Source of the DNA: an uncultured Armatimonadota bacterium
Lineage (GTDB): Bacteria; Armatimonadota; Fimbriimonadia; Fimbriimonadales; Fimbriimonadaceae
Direction of reading: 5' to 3'
Length of the DNA: 64,000 nucleotides
Assembly (NCBI GenBank): GCA_903927025.1
Contig: CAIYLG010000045.1
Location: 1-64,000 of the forward strand
Every line of letters starts with the position of its first letter. Position 1 is the stretch's first letter. The position numbers were made by a program, and so were the translations under genes. The notes under the pieces are model-generated. The model did not search any database. It was not told the DNA's origin and was given only the letters and a program-made list of their open reading frames with translations. This document shows positions 16,975 to 53,344 of the stretch, piece after piece.

Positions 16975-18135
16975 TCAGACTCCAGTCTGCCAACTCTTCC
17001 AGTAGGCCGGATCCTCAATTGCCAGCGCCTGCTCTGTGAGCTTGAAGGGATGGAAGGTGTCTACCATTACTGCCAGTTCCTCCGTTTTTGTTGCACCGAG
17101 CGATGCTTCAACCGCGCCCGGCTGAGGGCCATGAGGGATCCCAAGTGGATGCACTGTGATGCTTCCTTCCTCGATCCCCTTTCGTGATCCGAACTTATCG
17201 TTGACGTAGTAGAGAACCTCGTCTGAGTCAACGTTGGAGTGGTTGTAAGGCACCGCGATAGCCTGCGGATGATAGTCCAGCATCCTCGGACAGAAGCTGC
17301 AGATCACAAAATTATGCCCGTCGAACGTTTGGTGAATGGGTGGCGGCATGTGCAGCTTCCCAGTTATTGGTGAGAAGTCGTGAATGCTGAATGCGAACGG
17401 GAACACGTATCCATCCCAACCGACAACGTCGCAGGGATGATAGGGATAGTGATAAAGAGTCAGCCGGTTCCGCGCCCGTATGAGGACAGAGGTTGGCGTT
17501 CGGTCAGTGTGCACTTGAAGCGCTGTCGGAACTCGAATGTCGCGCTCTGAATAGGGCGCATGCTCGAGAAGCTGACCGAATTCGTTGCGATACCTTTTGG
17601 GGATCGAAATCGGGCCGAACGAGTCAATCGCAATCATTCGAACTGGAAGGTTTCGGAATTGAAGTCTGTAGATTGTTCCCCGAGGGATCACCAGGTAATC
17701 CCCTGGGAAGAACTCGAGATTGCCAAAAATGGATTCCAGGGTCCCTTCACCATCGTGGATGAAGAGGCATTCATCGCCGTCTGCGTTCTTGTAAAACGTG
17801 TCCATCTGCTCGGCGACCAGAGCCTGCGACCAGACCACATCCTGGTTTCCCATCAGCGGGATGCGACCGGATACCGCTGAACCCATCGGTGTCATGTGCG
17901 CTGTTTTCAGGTGGCGATGACGCAGTGGTTCTTCAGCAACATAAGTTGGCGCAACGGAACCCTTGTCTTCAAAGCCTGTGACGTCAGTCGGCTGATGACA
18001 GTGGTAGAGCGTCGACATTGGCCCGCTGAATCCGCGAGTACTGAACAGCTGCTCGGTGTAAAGACCCCCATCCGGCTTGCGGAATTGGGTGTGGTGCTTG
18101 TGGGGAAGTTCTCCTAGGCTAACGTATCGCGGCAT
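16975..18135 (-). CDS. hmgA: homogentisate 1,2-dioxygenase family protein
   Basis: 386 residues matching the bacterial homogentisate dioxygenase branch: N-terminal LGELPHKHHTQFR, the cupin strand FFPGDYLVIPRGTIYRLQF, the metal region PYNHSNVDSDEVLYYV and HPLGIPHGPQPG. The enzyme opens the homogentisate ring with Fe(II) in tyrosine catabolism. A very strong ribosome site (GGGAGGAGG, 5 bases) precedes ATG 18135. No other tyrosine-catabolism gene is in the window. Confidence 0.88.
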   Translation of the reverse strand: MPRYVSLGELPHKHHTQFRKPDGGLYTEQLFSTRGFSGPMSTLYHCHQPTDVTGFEDKGSVAPTYVAEEPLRHRHLKTAHMTPMGSAVSGRIPLMGNQDVVWSQALVAEQMDTFYKNADGDECLFIHDGEGTLESIFGNLEFFPGDYLVIPRGTIYRLQFRNLPVRMIAIDSFGPISIPKRYRNEFGQLLEHAPYSERDIRVPTALQVHTDRTPTSVLIRARNRLTLYHYPYHPCDVVGWDGYVFPFAFSIHDFSPITGKLHMPPPIHQTFDGHNFVICSFCPRMLDYHPQAIAVPYNHSNVDSDEVLYYVNDKFGSRKGIEEGSITVHPLGIPHGPQPGAVEASLGATKTEELAVMVDTFHPFKLTEQALAIEDPAYWKSWQTGV

Positions 18136-18288
18136 CTTCGCCTCCTCCCGTATTCTACTAGGAGCCCTTCACCCGTTAGATGACCAGGGCAACTTCTCAG
18201 CCGGAAAGAAAAAAAGATAAAAAGCCCCTTAAGTTTCTTTGTGAACGTCCCTACAATGAATCACACCCGCTCTTTGGGGAGAAGGGAA

Positions 18289-18370
18289 AGACAGAAAACG
18301 GCACGATAGGGGAAACCCTTACCACGCAAAGCCTAGGGTCTTGGAGAGAGACAGCCGGGTTGCCTGTCTG
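18289..18370 (+). ncRNA. cyclic-di-GMP-I (GEMM) riboswitch, compact form
   Basis: Conserved elements in order: CACGATAGGGGAAACC (18302-18317), ACGCAAAGCC (18323-18332), GACAGCCGGGTTGCC (18350-18364). The last two are near-exact GEMM-I signatures. P1 can form from GGCA (18300-18303) with TGCC (18361-18364), extended by AGACAG (18289-18294) with CTGTCT (18364-18369). The usual GNRA-capped stem is replaced by a few bases and P3 is very short. A second AGACAG at 18349-18354 can pair with the same CTGTCT, giving a competing hairpin that could act as switch. It ends 15 bases before the FlgM-like ATG. Confidence 0.7.
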
Positions 18371-18384
18371 AAATCGGAGTAGTT

Positions 18385-18654
18385 ATGCGGATTTCAGACA
18401 CAGAGATTAAGAAGATTATCAGCGGTCCATCAACCGCCATCGTCGATGCCATTGTCGAGACCGGCGTAGAACACGTTCGGCTAGAGAACCAAAAGCTCGT
18501 GGAAGCAGTTTCAGCGGAAGTGCTTGCGATGACAGATCGAGAAGAAATGATCGAAGAGATTCGAGCCCAGATTGCTTCTGGTCAGTACAACCCATCCGGC
18601 GAAGAAATCGTGGATGCGATGCTGAGACGAGCCATCGCCGACAACTTCCGATAA
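18385..18654 (+). CDS. FlgM-like anti-sigma-28 factor
   Basis: 89 residues, cytoplasmic, no signal peptide. Residues 50-85 (DREEMIEEIRAQIASG, then QYNPSGEEIVDAML) match the FlgM core that wraps sigma-28: charged helix, I-x-x-G-x-Y, then an S/D-x-x-x-I helix. The N-terminal half is a predicted helix with ISGPSTAIVDAIVETG. Length is typical (80-100). It follows the riboswitch directly, so c-di-GMP should set its expression. Its natural partner is the WhiG/FliA-type sigma factor at 34312. Family call from motif reading. Confidence 0.65.
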   Translation: MRISDTEIKKIISGPSTAIVDAIVETGVEHVRLENQKLVEAVSAEVLAMTDREEMIEEIRAQIASGQYNPSGEEIVDAMLRRAIADNFR

Positions 18655-34311: not shown

Positions 34312-35085
34312 ATGCTTCTTTCTCCAGAAAATCTTAAGAACGCTTGGGCAGACTTTTCAGTCTACAGAAAGCCGCTTGCTCGCGCCGACCTTATTCAACA
34401 CTACGCCTACCTCGTGAAGGTTACGGTGGGACGCCTTGCCGCGTCCTTGCCTGGCGGTTTGGAAAGAGAAGATCTTATCAGTGCTGGAGCTGTCGGGCTC
34501 ATCAAGGCAGTCGATCAGTACGACATCACTCGTGCCGTTAAGTTCGAAACATATGCGATCGCGCTGATTCGCGGCTCGGTTCTGGAAATGCTCCGTGAAG
34601 AGGACTGGGTGCCTCGTTCAATTCGCGAGAAGCTGAGAGCACTTGATCGAACAGTGGCCCTCCTGGAAGTCGAATTGGGCAGACCCCCATCCCCCCACCA
34701 AATTGCGGAGCGTATGGGGATCTCCGAACAACAGGTCAGCGAACTCATGGTTCGGACGACCCGAACTTCAGTTCACAGCCTAGAGGACGTTATCGGCTCT
34801 GGTGATGACGGTATCAAACTCGTTGACCTTGTCGTCGACGAAGGCAATAACACCGACAAAGAAATTCAAGGTCGAGAGCTCCGCCGTATTCTTGTGGATG
34901 GCACCGACCGATTGCCGGATAGAGAAAAGCTAGTCGTCGCGCTTTATTACCATCGTGGCCTCACCTTCCGCGAAATTGGCCAGGTCCTCGGAGTAAGCGA
35001 ACCTCGCGCTCATCATCTCCACTCTCAGGCCATGACCCGTTTAAGATCACACATGATCCACCAGGGCATCTCGCAGCCCTGCTAA
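34312..35085 (+). CDS. RNA polymerase sigma factor of the FliA/WhiG (sigma-28) family
   Basis: 257 residues: region 2 (LIQHYAYLVKVTVGRLAASLP, then GLEREDLISAGAVGLIKAVDQYD, FETYAIALIRGSVLEMLREEDWVPRS) is the FliA/WhiG signature; region 3 RPPSPHQIAERMGIS; region 4 DREKLVVALYYHRGLTFREIGQVLGVSEPRAHHLHSQAM. The region-4 recognition helix has RAHHLHSQ where flagellar members usually have RVSQLHSQ, hinting at changed promoter choice. No flagellar genes are near. Natural partner of the FlgM-like protein at 18385. A 227-bp upstream gap precedes it. Confidence 0.93.
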   Translation: MLLSPENLKNAWADFSVYRKPLARADLIQHYAYLVKVTVGRLAASLPGGLEREDLISAGAVGLIKAVDQYDITRAVKFETYAIALIRGSVLEMLREEDWVPRSIREKLRALDRTVALLEVELGRPPSPHQIAERMGISEQQVSELMVRTTRTSVHSLEDVIGSGDDGIKLVDLVVDEGNNTDKEIQGRELRRILVDGTDRLPDREKLVVALYYHRGLTFREIGQVLGVSEPRAHHLHSQAMTRLRSHMIHQGISQPC

Positions 35086-50672: not shown

Positions 50673-52188
50673 CCTGGTTAAGCCTAAGATTTCTGGCCGG
50701 GAGGTATTGGCGCGCGCATGGCGGGACTCTCAAGTTTTCAGCCTTGGCGGGGTCATTTACGGCATCGTCTCGGCAGTCTGGATTATCGTCAAGGTGGCTG
50801 CCGTGACGTGGACATGGTCAACCTTACTCCCCGGCATTTGGGAATCTATAGAGGGGCTGGTTTTGTTTGCCTTGATCTGGTTCCTTGTATGCCTTTTGCT
50901 CGCCCCATCGAGAATCAAGCAAGATCAGAAAAAGCAGTCAGCGATCGATGGGCCTATTCATGAAAAACTCGACAGGATCATCGATCAAACAAGCAACGCG
51001 CCTAAGTCGTTGCCCTCATCTGGGGCTGAGAACCCGGTTGATCTGTACGTTGAATACGATCCACAGTGGTACCTTGTCATAGATCCTCATGATACGATCA
51101 GGATCGTTCCTCTTACTGAATCCTCTTCTTTCCCTTTTGACCATGTGGGTTTTTTGACGGTGCCAAACTTGTCGACAGAAACTCGATTTATGTATGGTGG
51201 TCCGGGTTTTCAGTCATTTGCCCGATGCAAGATTACGAACTACTCTGGGAAAGCACTGTTCAAGATTGAATTAAAAATCGCCGGTCAGTTTAACGAGTTC
51301 GTTCAAGATGAATCCAGTACCCCTGGATCAGGTTCATGGAGTAAGCCTGTACAAGCTCGGAATTGGATTATCGAGATTGACCATATTGATCCGGGTCCTG
51401 AGGCTTCATATATCTTCTTTCTTCAAAATCAAGCAAGAGCTGAACTCAATGTTACTGTTAGCTATCCGCTAGAAAGTACGGCGCAATCGTCCGGTGCGGA
51501 TCGTCGCGCACTTAAGATCGATCACAAGCATCCTCCATTCGTCTCGCTCCAGTCTTGTTTCCCAGAGACGGTACCTCCGGCAATGCGGGCGAAGAAAGCG
51601 AAGGGTGAGTCCACCAAAGGCGCGTTGTATTTCGAGCAGATCCACTCGAAGATGCCCGCAACAGCGGACGGACTTCCTGTCCTCGATCCAAGTAGAGTCA
51701 ATCCTATCAATCTTTGGGGACTTGGAACAACAAGCTATGGTGTTAGCGATAGGCCCGAAGCGACACGGTGTCGGGTCATAAATGATAGTGACGATGTTCT
51801 CTTAAATGTCGAATTCCAGTTGCCGATAACCTTCACCGATATGAACAGAGGAATCGTTACCGCTCAGGAACCTTATGATGACCAGAAGTCGGCCATCACG
51901 GTTATGCCGACGATTCGAATAGCAAGGCTTGGACCACACGACGCCGCTGCATATGAATTCTATGTGCGGAATCACACGGACCAATTCGTGAGGGTCGGCT
52001 ACCCAACGGAAGCACAAGCGCGAAAACTTGACGGAACTCCGGAAGCGTTGAACTTTCGATATGCTGACGATTCTTCAGTACCGATATGTCCATATCAAGA
52101 CGACAAATCCGCGCAAGTCCTTAAGAAAGAACTTTTGGATAAAGGGATTCTCGAAAAGACAACTCCCTCAAAGAGGGCAAGGAAATAA
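50665..52188 (+). CDS. large orphan membrane-anchored protein, AT-rich
   Basis: 507 residues: two N-terminal TM helices (about 27-50 and 58-82), a coiled-coil-prone linker (PSRIKQDQKKQSAIDGPIHEKLDRIIDQTSN), then a beta-rich domain that appears to contain an internal duplication: FLTVPNLSTETRFMYGG...CKITNYSGKALFKIELKIAGQF and TTSYGVSDRPEATRCRVINDSDDVLLNVEFQLPITF have the same layout (x-CR-I/V-x-N-x-S, L-x-V-E/F). More AT-rich than its neighbours, suggesting transfer. Function unknown. Confidence 0.6.
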   Translation: MSNLVKPKISGREVLARAWRDSQVFSLGGVIYGIVSAVWIIVKVAAVTWTWSTLLPGIWESIEGLVLFALIWFLVCLLLAPSRIKQDQKKQSAIDGPIHEKLDRIIDQTSNAPKSLPSSGAENPVDLYVEYDPQWYLVIDPHDTIRIVPLTESSSFPFDHVGFLTVPNLSTETRFMYGGPGFQSFARCKITNYSGKALFKIELKIAGQFNEFVQDESSTPGSGSWSKPVQARNWIIEIDHIDPGPEASYIFFLQNQARAELNVTVSYPLESTAQSSGADRRALKIDHKHPPFVSLQSCFPETVPPAMRAKKAKGESTKGALYFEQIHSKMPATADGLPVLDPSRVNPINLWGLGTTSYGVSDRPEATRCRVINDSDDVLLNVEFQLPITFTDMNRGIVTAQEPYDDQKSAITVMPTIRIARLGPHDAAAYEFYVRNHTDQFVRVGYPTEAQARKLDGTPEALNFRYADDSSVPICPYQDDKSAQVLKKELLDKGILEKTTPSKRARK

Positions 52189-52235: not shown

Positions 52236-53344
52236 GTGAAAGAGATCAACGGCCCGAATACCCTAATCGAAGTAATTCGATATTTCGAAGACGAAGAGAC
52301 GTGCATTCGCACACTCTCCGCTATTCGATGGCCGGACGGTGTTATCGGTTGTCCGGCTTGCGGAAACACTTCGCACTACTACCTAGCCACTCGTCGCGTT
52401 TGGAAGTGCAAGGCATGTTCGAAGCAGTTCTCTATCAAGGTCGGGACTATCTTCGAAGATTCGCCCGTCAAGCTTTCCAAGTGGCTACCGGCTATGTGGA
52501 TGATCTGCGGCGCTAAGAACGGCGTATCGTCTTATGAGATCCACCGCGCACTCGGAGTAACCCAAAAGACCGCGTGGTTTATGCTTCACCGAATCCGACT
52601 GGCTATGAAAGCCGGTTCGATCACGAAGCTAGCAGGATGCGGAAAAAGGCCGAAGTGTAGTTATCAGTCAAGAATAGGCTGAAAGTTAAGCCTCTGGGAT
52701 GGCGTTTAAGGCCGGTCAGCTGTGGTCCAAGGTCATTTATGACCTGCCGGATAATCGAACAATGGAATTTCTTCGACTTTTTCCGCAACCTGCTAGGCGA
52801 CGATGTAGAAGTCGATGAGACCTATATCGGCGGCAAAGCTCGAAACATGCACAATGCGGTTAGAGAGCGAAAGATCACGGGTAGCGGACGCAAGGACAAG
52901 ATTGCGGTTATGGGTCTGCTCGAAAGAGACGGACAGGTAGTCACGATGGTCATCAGCGGGACGAAGAAGAAGGACCTTCAGTCTATCGTTCGAGACACCG
53001 TTCTTGACGGATCGCGGCTTTACACCGATGCTTTCCGATCCTACAACGGTCTTGAGGTCTGGTATCGACATCAGGTCGTAGACCACGCCATCAGCTACGT
53101 GGAGGGTCAGGTCCATACAAACGGCATGGAGAACTACTGGTCACTGCTCAAGAGAACCCTAAAGGGCACCTACGTAGTCGTAGCACCGTTCCATCTTCAC
53201 CGATACCTAGACGAGCAGTCTTTCCGGTTCAATCAGCGACGAGACACCGACGCGGGGCGATTCGAAACCGCTCTTAGCGGCGTGACCGGTCGGCGCGTGA
53301 CGTACAAGAAGTTAACGGGCAAAGAATTGTCCGCAGGAGTCTGA
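52236..53344 (+). pseudogene. IS1595-family transposase, split by a MITE
   Basis: The N-terminal part (52236 to 52629) has the zinc ribbon GCPACGNTSHYY...WKCKACSKQF and FSIKVGTIFEDSPVKLSKWL, VTQKTAWFMLHRIRLAMKAG. The C-terminal part continues from 52796 with GDDVEVDETYIGGKARNMH (first Asp), LYTDAFRSY (second Asp) and HTNGMENYWSLLKR. Between them a 162-bp element plus a 2-bp duplication breaks the frame (164 bp, change of frame by two). Joining AAGCTA to GGCGAC restores a full protein of about 315 residues. Terminal inverted repeats of the IS itself were not found. Confidence 0.88.
52632..52793. mobile_element. 162-bp MITE with TIRs, TA target duplication, inside IS1595
   Basis: Left end (52632-52655) starts GCAGGATGCGGAAAAAGG; the right end reversed (52793-52771) starts GCAGGTTGCGGAAAAAGT. 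The two agree at 21 of 23-24 positions. TA at 52630-52631 is duplicated at 52794-52795 within a CTAG context, as in IS630/mariner transposition. No ORF inside large enough for a transposase, so it must be moved in trans. An internal palindrome AGGTCA-TTTA-TGACCT lies at 52730-52745. Element is more AT-rich at its ends. Confidence 0.85.

Follow-up and report, generated by a model that had tools for sequence, protein, structure and literature searches.

A sigma-28/FlgM pair under a predicted c-di-GMP riboswitch in a flagella-free Armatimonadota genome: a flagellar control module that may have outlived the flagellum

Sigma-28 and its anti-sigma factor FlgM belong to the flagellar checkpoint: once the hook is complete, FlgM leaves the cell through it. 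As a general rule c-di-GMP represses motility, and in Clostridioides difficile a riboswitch that acts as a transcriptional OFF switch heads a large early flagellar operon. Members of the FliA/WhiG family can also be governed through the anti-sigma factor, as in the RsiG-WhiG system, where c-di-GMP arms RsiG against WhiG and the targets are type IV pili in Rubrobacter and sporulation in Streptomyces (PMC8325347). FliA and FlgM without flagella are already known from Legionella oakridgensis, a precedent missing from an earlier note on the DNA analyzed here, which was made from the sequence and without database searches. In that species (Tlapak 2017, reviewed in PMC5655016) the flagellar regulon was lost and only homologs of FliA and FlgM were kept, FlgM represses FliA and is reported to be degraded according to growth phase and temperature, and flgM is sigma-28 dependent.

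Here we consider a stretch of 64,000 nucleotides (the window) from a soil-type Armatimonadota whose assembly is a 5.25 Mb, 66-contig draft with a completeness of 98.4%. In this genome the exit of FlgM via the hook is gone, yet the pair persists and already has another input, a riboswitch predicted to let FlgM be made only in the presence of c-di-GMP. Our preferred reading, to which we give a probability of about 0.62, is that a flagellar control module has outlived the flagellum, with a c-di-GMP riboswitch allowing the synthesis of FlgM, which would hold sigma-28; the surviving circuit now probably controls something other than flagella.

The sigma factor is encoded at 34312-35085 on the forward strand (257 aa, ATG start) and belongs to the FliA/WhiG (sigma-28) family of RNA polymerase sigma factors, as the earlier note had proposed, with 222.3 bits against TIGR02479 FliA_WhiG (cut-off 189.6; model positions 1-223 of 224), a model on which flagellated orthologs score higher. 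It stays below the thresholds of two other models, with 236.5 bits against 343 for the WhiG equivalog NF004935 and 196.1 bits, just under 201, for the FliA subfamily NF005413. Its presumed partner is an 89-aa FlgM-like anti-sigma-28 factor at 18385-18654 on the forward strand, adjoining hmgA across the family, which reaches 38.3 bits against PF04316 (gathering threshold 25) and, at 24.1 bits, lies under the 40.75 of the FlgM equivalog TIGR03824. With an E value of 2e-5, a profile of the family finds the Aquifex FlgM from the sigma28-FlgM complex (1rp3/1sc5), and from orthology and this match we infer that the protein would bind and inhibit sigma-28. By inspection the 89-aa protein lacks the RsiG motif E(X)3S(X)2R(X)3Q(X)3D, and it has no family match except FlgM. 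Genome-wide, the ORF at 34312-35085 is the single sigma factor above the TIGR02479 cut-off and the ORF at 18385-18654 is the sole FlgM; the sigma factor thus keeps the place of only candidate partner that the earlier note had given it, and a better-matching second FliA, which that note had named as counter-evidence, is not found over this cut-off. Conserved linkage of the two genes, suggested by their 16-kb spacing, was considered and rejected, as they lie 2.9 Mb apart in a relative, G123. A homogentisate-dioxygenase-like gene at 16975-18135 of the window is the usual upstream neighbor of the riboswitch and flgM across the family.

Neither FlhA, the flagellar export gate, nor flagellin was found in the window's own assembly by a search limited to these two flagellar markers, which does find both in flagellated relatives and control genomes; on these markers, the genome-wide scan proposed by the earlier note shows no complete flagellar cluster elsewhere. 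With both genes absent from the genome, FlgM export via the flagellar type III apparatus, the essence of the flagellar checkpoint, is lacking. Relatives were sampled across the phylum, and within the Fimbriimonadaceae sample FlhA is missing only in the window genome (G000) and in G123, G051, G133, and G138, all of the same genus; L215 to L223 are MAGs whose flagella-free status was judged by FlhA alone. G123, assembled as one contig of 5,231,762 bases, very likely represents Fimbriimonas ginsengisoli Gsoil 348, which has been described as a non-motile, piliated species with 79 pseudopilin genes and a single fliA (PMC4072686); other Fimbriimonadaceae are described as motile and fully equipped with flagellar genes (PMC5629041). 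A 98.4% complete draft in 66 contigs, searched with two markers, leaves some room for flagellar genes that exist and are missing from the assembly. However, FlhA and several flagellin genes are unlinked in relatives and all are missing here, they are also absent from single-contig G123 and from three more genomes of the genus, and F. ginsengisoli is described as non-motile (PMC4072686), so that we consider this explanation highly improbable.

The sigma gene sits among the same neighbors (hyp, MBL hydrolase, SurA-like, and speE, in the order hyp-MBL-SIGMA-SurA) in flagellated and flagella-free relatives, and flgM lies beside hmgA; both are therefore in-place orthologs of the family's flagellar pair. 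Since such orthologs are kept throughout the flagellated Fimbriimonadaceae, the pair is older than the loss of the flagellum and, judged by gene order, is inherited from flagellated ancestors, a point absent from the earlier note. The five genomes without FlhA cluster weakly in an RpoB tree (support 55), which makes a single flagellum loss likely, not proven. Both flgM and the riboswitch are kept in G000 and G123, and both are lost in G051, G133, and G138, which retain the sigma factor. Outside the family, FlgM without FlhA was seen in 17 genomes of other families (G002, G005, G006, G013, G017, G031, G063, G075, G090, G093, G118, G129, G145, G149, G158, G166, and G176), some of which are incomplete MAGs; retention after flagellum loss may therefore be common in the phylum.

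The earlier note had suggested that the c-di-GMP logic of the Streptomyces system could act here through a riboswitch, and a family match, a conserved aptamer-flgM linkage and covariation in a hairpin over the ribosome-binding site now argue for this. The predicted c-di-GMP-I aptamer (RF01051, 41.1 bits by cmscan, gathering threshold 35) occupies 18290-18367 on the forward strand and ends 17 nt upstream of the flgM start codon. By inspection, it keeps the bases that we take to be equivalent to Vc2 G20 and C92, and with these ligand bases kept it is predicted to be an RNA with c-di-GMP as its ligand. The aptamer precedes flgM in most Fimbriimonadaceae genomes, in G191 of the same order, and in G003, G022, and G020 of other families. 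In L215, the closest relative, the aptamer (1477-1555) has UAGCA where others have xGGCA, presumably resembling the G20A substitution, with which class I riboswitches shift toward cGAMP. Among the proteins encoded by the L216 genome are a GGDEF (diguanylate) cyclase and two HD-GYP proteins, and c-di-GMP turnover therefore exists in a flagella-free member. Our search, confined to the open-access literature, turned up neither a c-di-GMP riboswitch described from Armatimonadota nor one devoted to flgM.

What is new here is the expression platform of this riboswitch, all elements of which lie on the forward strand. The outer closing stem of the aptamer, P1b, has its 5' strand GACA at 18290-18293, pairing with UGUC at 18365-18368; it was drawn from the sequence and from enforced-state folding of 37 leaders, and other subclades have different complementary letters at this place, as read by eye. 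The switching strand, UGUCUGAAAUC at 18365-18375, can pair either through its first 4 nt with the 5' strand of P1b or with GAUUUCAGACA at 18390-18400, which lies inside flgM and forms codons 2-6. The resulting 11-bp helix UGUCUGAAAUC/GAUUUCAGACA encloses both the AUG of flgM and its probable Shine-Dalgarno sequence, GGAG at 18376-18379, assigned from the sequence 5 nt before the ATG. The ribosome-binding site helix was found in 37 leaders, with 6-11 bp in most, and the 11 bp of the window place it in the strongest class of the set; it is intact in the window genome and in L215, L216, L217, L219, L220, and L223, all without FlhA. At the wobble position of the Ser4 codon, where the base is free to vary, pairing is kept in 37/37 leaders (UA in 31, CG in four, GC in one, and GU in one). 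Among 33 distinct leaders 87% of cells are paired, against 19-48% when the helix is slid out of register, and 10 cells carry double-sided changes; these and the covariation score lie above every one of 500 shuffles. For the 33 leaders, the numbers of pairs and of different pair types, the measures least affected by kinship, do not exceed the shuffles, and the covariation support therefore comes mainly from Ser4 and the neighboring pairs. The local fold z-score in the window is -3.3. A subclade that includes G061 (L121), G070 (L122), G196 (L130), and L256 has a different closing-stem sequence and is without the hairpin described here; some of its members have instead a short AGACC/GGUCU-type stem that covers the flgM Shine-Dalgarno sequence.

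Since the switching strand is common to the aptamer closing stem and the hairpin, an ON switch is predicted. In the folding model, the helix has a mean probability of 0.90 in the 37 leaders when free and of 0.30 with P1b enforced. Enforcing P1b carries a model cost of 2-17 kcal/mol and leaves the mean accessibility of the AUG and Shine-Dalgarno sequence almost unchanged, and with the direction drawn from folding only, the riboswitch might be an OFF switch or might act on transcript elongation rather than translation. Nevertheless, no terminator in the leader passed a simple scan, the conserved hairpin encloses the start codon and Shine-Dalgarno sequence while sharing bases with the closing stem, and an ON switch for FlgM accords with the usual repression of motility by c-di-GMP; OFF or elongation control seems to us distinctly unlikely, and the translational ON direction is the one we predict.

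The sigma factor of the window genome has diverged. Its region-4 helix differs from that of flagellar FliA, as the earlier note had observed, with SEPRAHH in place of the SESRVYQ present in 20/20 aligned flagellated relatives. The changes S231P, V233A, Y234H, and Q235H fall in the -35 recognition helix, E215R being a further one, and they include positions that we take to be equivalent to the sigma70 residues E585, R588, and Q589, through which the -35 element is read. Of the 103 sites that do not vary among 20 flagellated sigma factors, two are changed in G123, 14 in G000, 29 in G051 and G133, and 36 in G138, with nine in the outgroup G191; four of the 14 in G000 fall in five recognition-helix positions (p 0.001). 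The window sigma branch is about three times longer than those of the flagellated orthologs and the window RpoB is not lengthened. In the flagella-free pair G051 and G133, 100 synonymous and four nonsynonymous differences give a sigma dN/dS of 0.007, equally strict as the 0.009-0.013 of flagellated pairs, and there the sigma factor is therefore no relic. By these measures of sequence constraint, selection generally acts on the sigma-28 module across flagella-free genomes, and the window sigma factor may show altered specificity or partial relaxation. In about 1.6 Mb of the L216 genome (G202) the sigma-28 gene was not found. G051, G133, and G138 (L136, L137, and L138) have a strongly diverged yet tightly constrained sigma-28, without the riboswitch and without FlgM, its known inhibitor.

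The promoter of flgM has changed as well. Most family members carry a sigma-28-like promoter, CCCTAAAGAA...CCGATAA, 36-51 nt 5' of the aptamer, which is also present in flagella-free G123 and weaker in L217. Where relatives have the sigma-28 promoter TAAAG-N15/16-CCGATAA, the window has TTAAG-N16-CCTACAA (18229-18256, forward strand), a weak candidate promoter for the riboswitch-flgM transcript that no longer matches the sigma-28 consensus; the site is likewise replaced in L215 (CCTACCA) and L216 (CCAGAAT), with similar TTAAG sites. A simple scan of the leader showed no sigma70-like promoter. A tentative reading, which we hold to be possible and somewhat improbable, is that after the loss of the flagellum the sigma factor was re-tuned to a new promoter specificity, the flgM promoter changing in step, and is still held by FlgM under the c-di-GMP riboswitch. 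This rests on changes in three of the four residues taken to contact the -35 element, together with the shift of the flgM promoter from TAAAG-CCGATAA to TTAAG-CCTACAA.

The long sigma branch with its 14 changes at 103 invariant sites, the non-canonical flgM promoter, and the loss of FlgM and the riboswitch in G051, G133, and G138 would also suit a decaying relic, in which sigma factor, FlgM, and riboswitch drift to loss and are functionless in the window genome. Against this, all ORFs are intact and the 11-bp helix belongs to the strongest class; FlgM of G000 and L215, both without FlhA, differs with a dN of 0.19 and a dS of 2.2, a ratio of about 0.09 at a dS near saturation. Moreover, the window sigma factor has changed at 14% of invariant vs. 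50% of variable sites, with the changes clustered in one helix (p 0.001), the dN/dS of 0.007 comes from other flagella-free genomes, and the G123 sigma factor is conserved as in flagellates (2/103). We therefore regard a relic as unlikely. The non-flagellar sigma-28 circuit put forward in the earlier note is borne out as to the sole pair, the lack of FlhA and flagellin, and the conserved riboswitch; its present-day working in the window genome stays possible, which is the right word because the sigma factor is accelerated and the promoter changed.

As to the regulon, the genome-wide promoter scan called for in the earlier note brought no support, TAAA-N15-GCCGATAA not being enriched over a reversed control; it was not enriched in flagellated controls either, and the null scan is therefore no evidence against a regulon. 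Upstream regions of flagellins, used as a source for a family motif, gave a TAAA...GCCGA-like motif in one flagellin class only. A match to TAAA-N15-GCCGATAA at 51803 of the window lies inside a coding region and was rejected as a promoter. Two adjacent ORFs in different frames at 52236-53344 of the window resemble, by their translations, one transposase (zinc-ribbon and DDE) with a frameshift. By analogy with WhiG of Rubrobacter, the likeliest targets, as a guess, would be genes for attachment or pili. Neither gene of the pair lies in a flagellar cluster in flagellated relatives, as judged from identified neighbors, and the regulon may always have been wider in this family, taking in pili, adhesion, or envelope genes, with an ancestral non-flagellar part that simply stayed. 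The 79 pseudopilin genes and one fliA of non-motile, piliated F. ginsengisoli (PMC4072686) and the running of type IV pili by WhiG in Rubrobacter (PMC8325347) are in keeping with this, whereas the promoter scan found no such regulon; we see it as a serious contender at a little under even odds, differing from the preferred reading in timing and target and sharing its mechanism.

Under the preferred reading of a module that outlived its flagellum, the leader would fold as the hairpin when c-di-GMP is scarce and FlgM would not be made, leaving sigma-28 free to transcribe its regulon, including in relatives the riboswitch-flgM transcript itself. Binding of c-di-GMP would let the closing stem form, the hairpin would lose its lower four pairs, and FlgM would be translated and hold sigma-28. 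In this scheme c-di-GMP would arm the anti-sigma factor by its synthesis and not by binding it, and the level of FlgM would be set by synthesis, presumably also by proteolysis, instead of flagellar export. In the window genome itself, the sigma factor has probably drifted in its -35 specificity. If true, this would explain how such a circuit is inherited and re-used after flagellum loss and would give c-di-GMP a second route, in addition to RsiG-WhiG, to the arming of an anti-sigma factor against the FliA/WhiG family. F. ginsengisoli is in culture and hence offers direct access to the hairpin, ligand response, and regulon.

Several known systems share parts of this arrangement. Very likely F. 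ginsengisoli, G123 has the same riboswitch-flgM arrangement with a canonical sigma-28, both recognition helix and flgM promoter being canonical there and changed in the window. The C. difficile flgB operon likewise places a class I c-di-GMP riboswitch within flagellar control (PMC5386303), whereas here flgM alone stands behind the riboswitch, a hairpin encloses the ribosome-binding site, and the predicted logic is ON. L. oakridgensis also has FliA and FlgM without flagella, with FlgM still a negative regulator (PMC5655016); no c-di-GMP riboswitch is described there, unlike the predicted c-di-GMP-set synthesis of FlgM in the window. RsiG-WhiG shares a FliA/WhiG-family sigma factor, an anti-sigma factor that holds it at high c-di-GMP (predicted here), and, in that system, non-flagellar targets. 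RsiG itself binds c-di-GMP, however, whereas here the anti-sigma factor is of the FlgM family without the RsiG motif and the mRNA leader is the predicted reader of the ligand. RsiG-WhiG and the FliA-FlgM pair of L. oakridgensis are the closest precedents, and the riboswitch-gated FlgM appears to be new.
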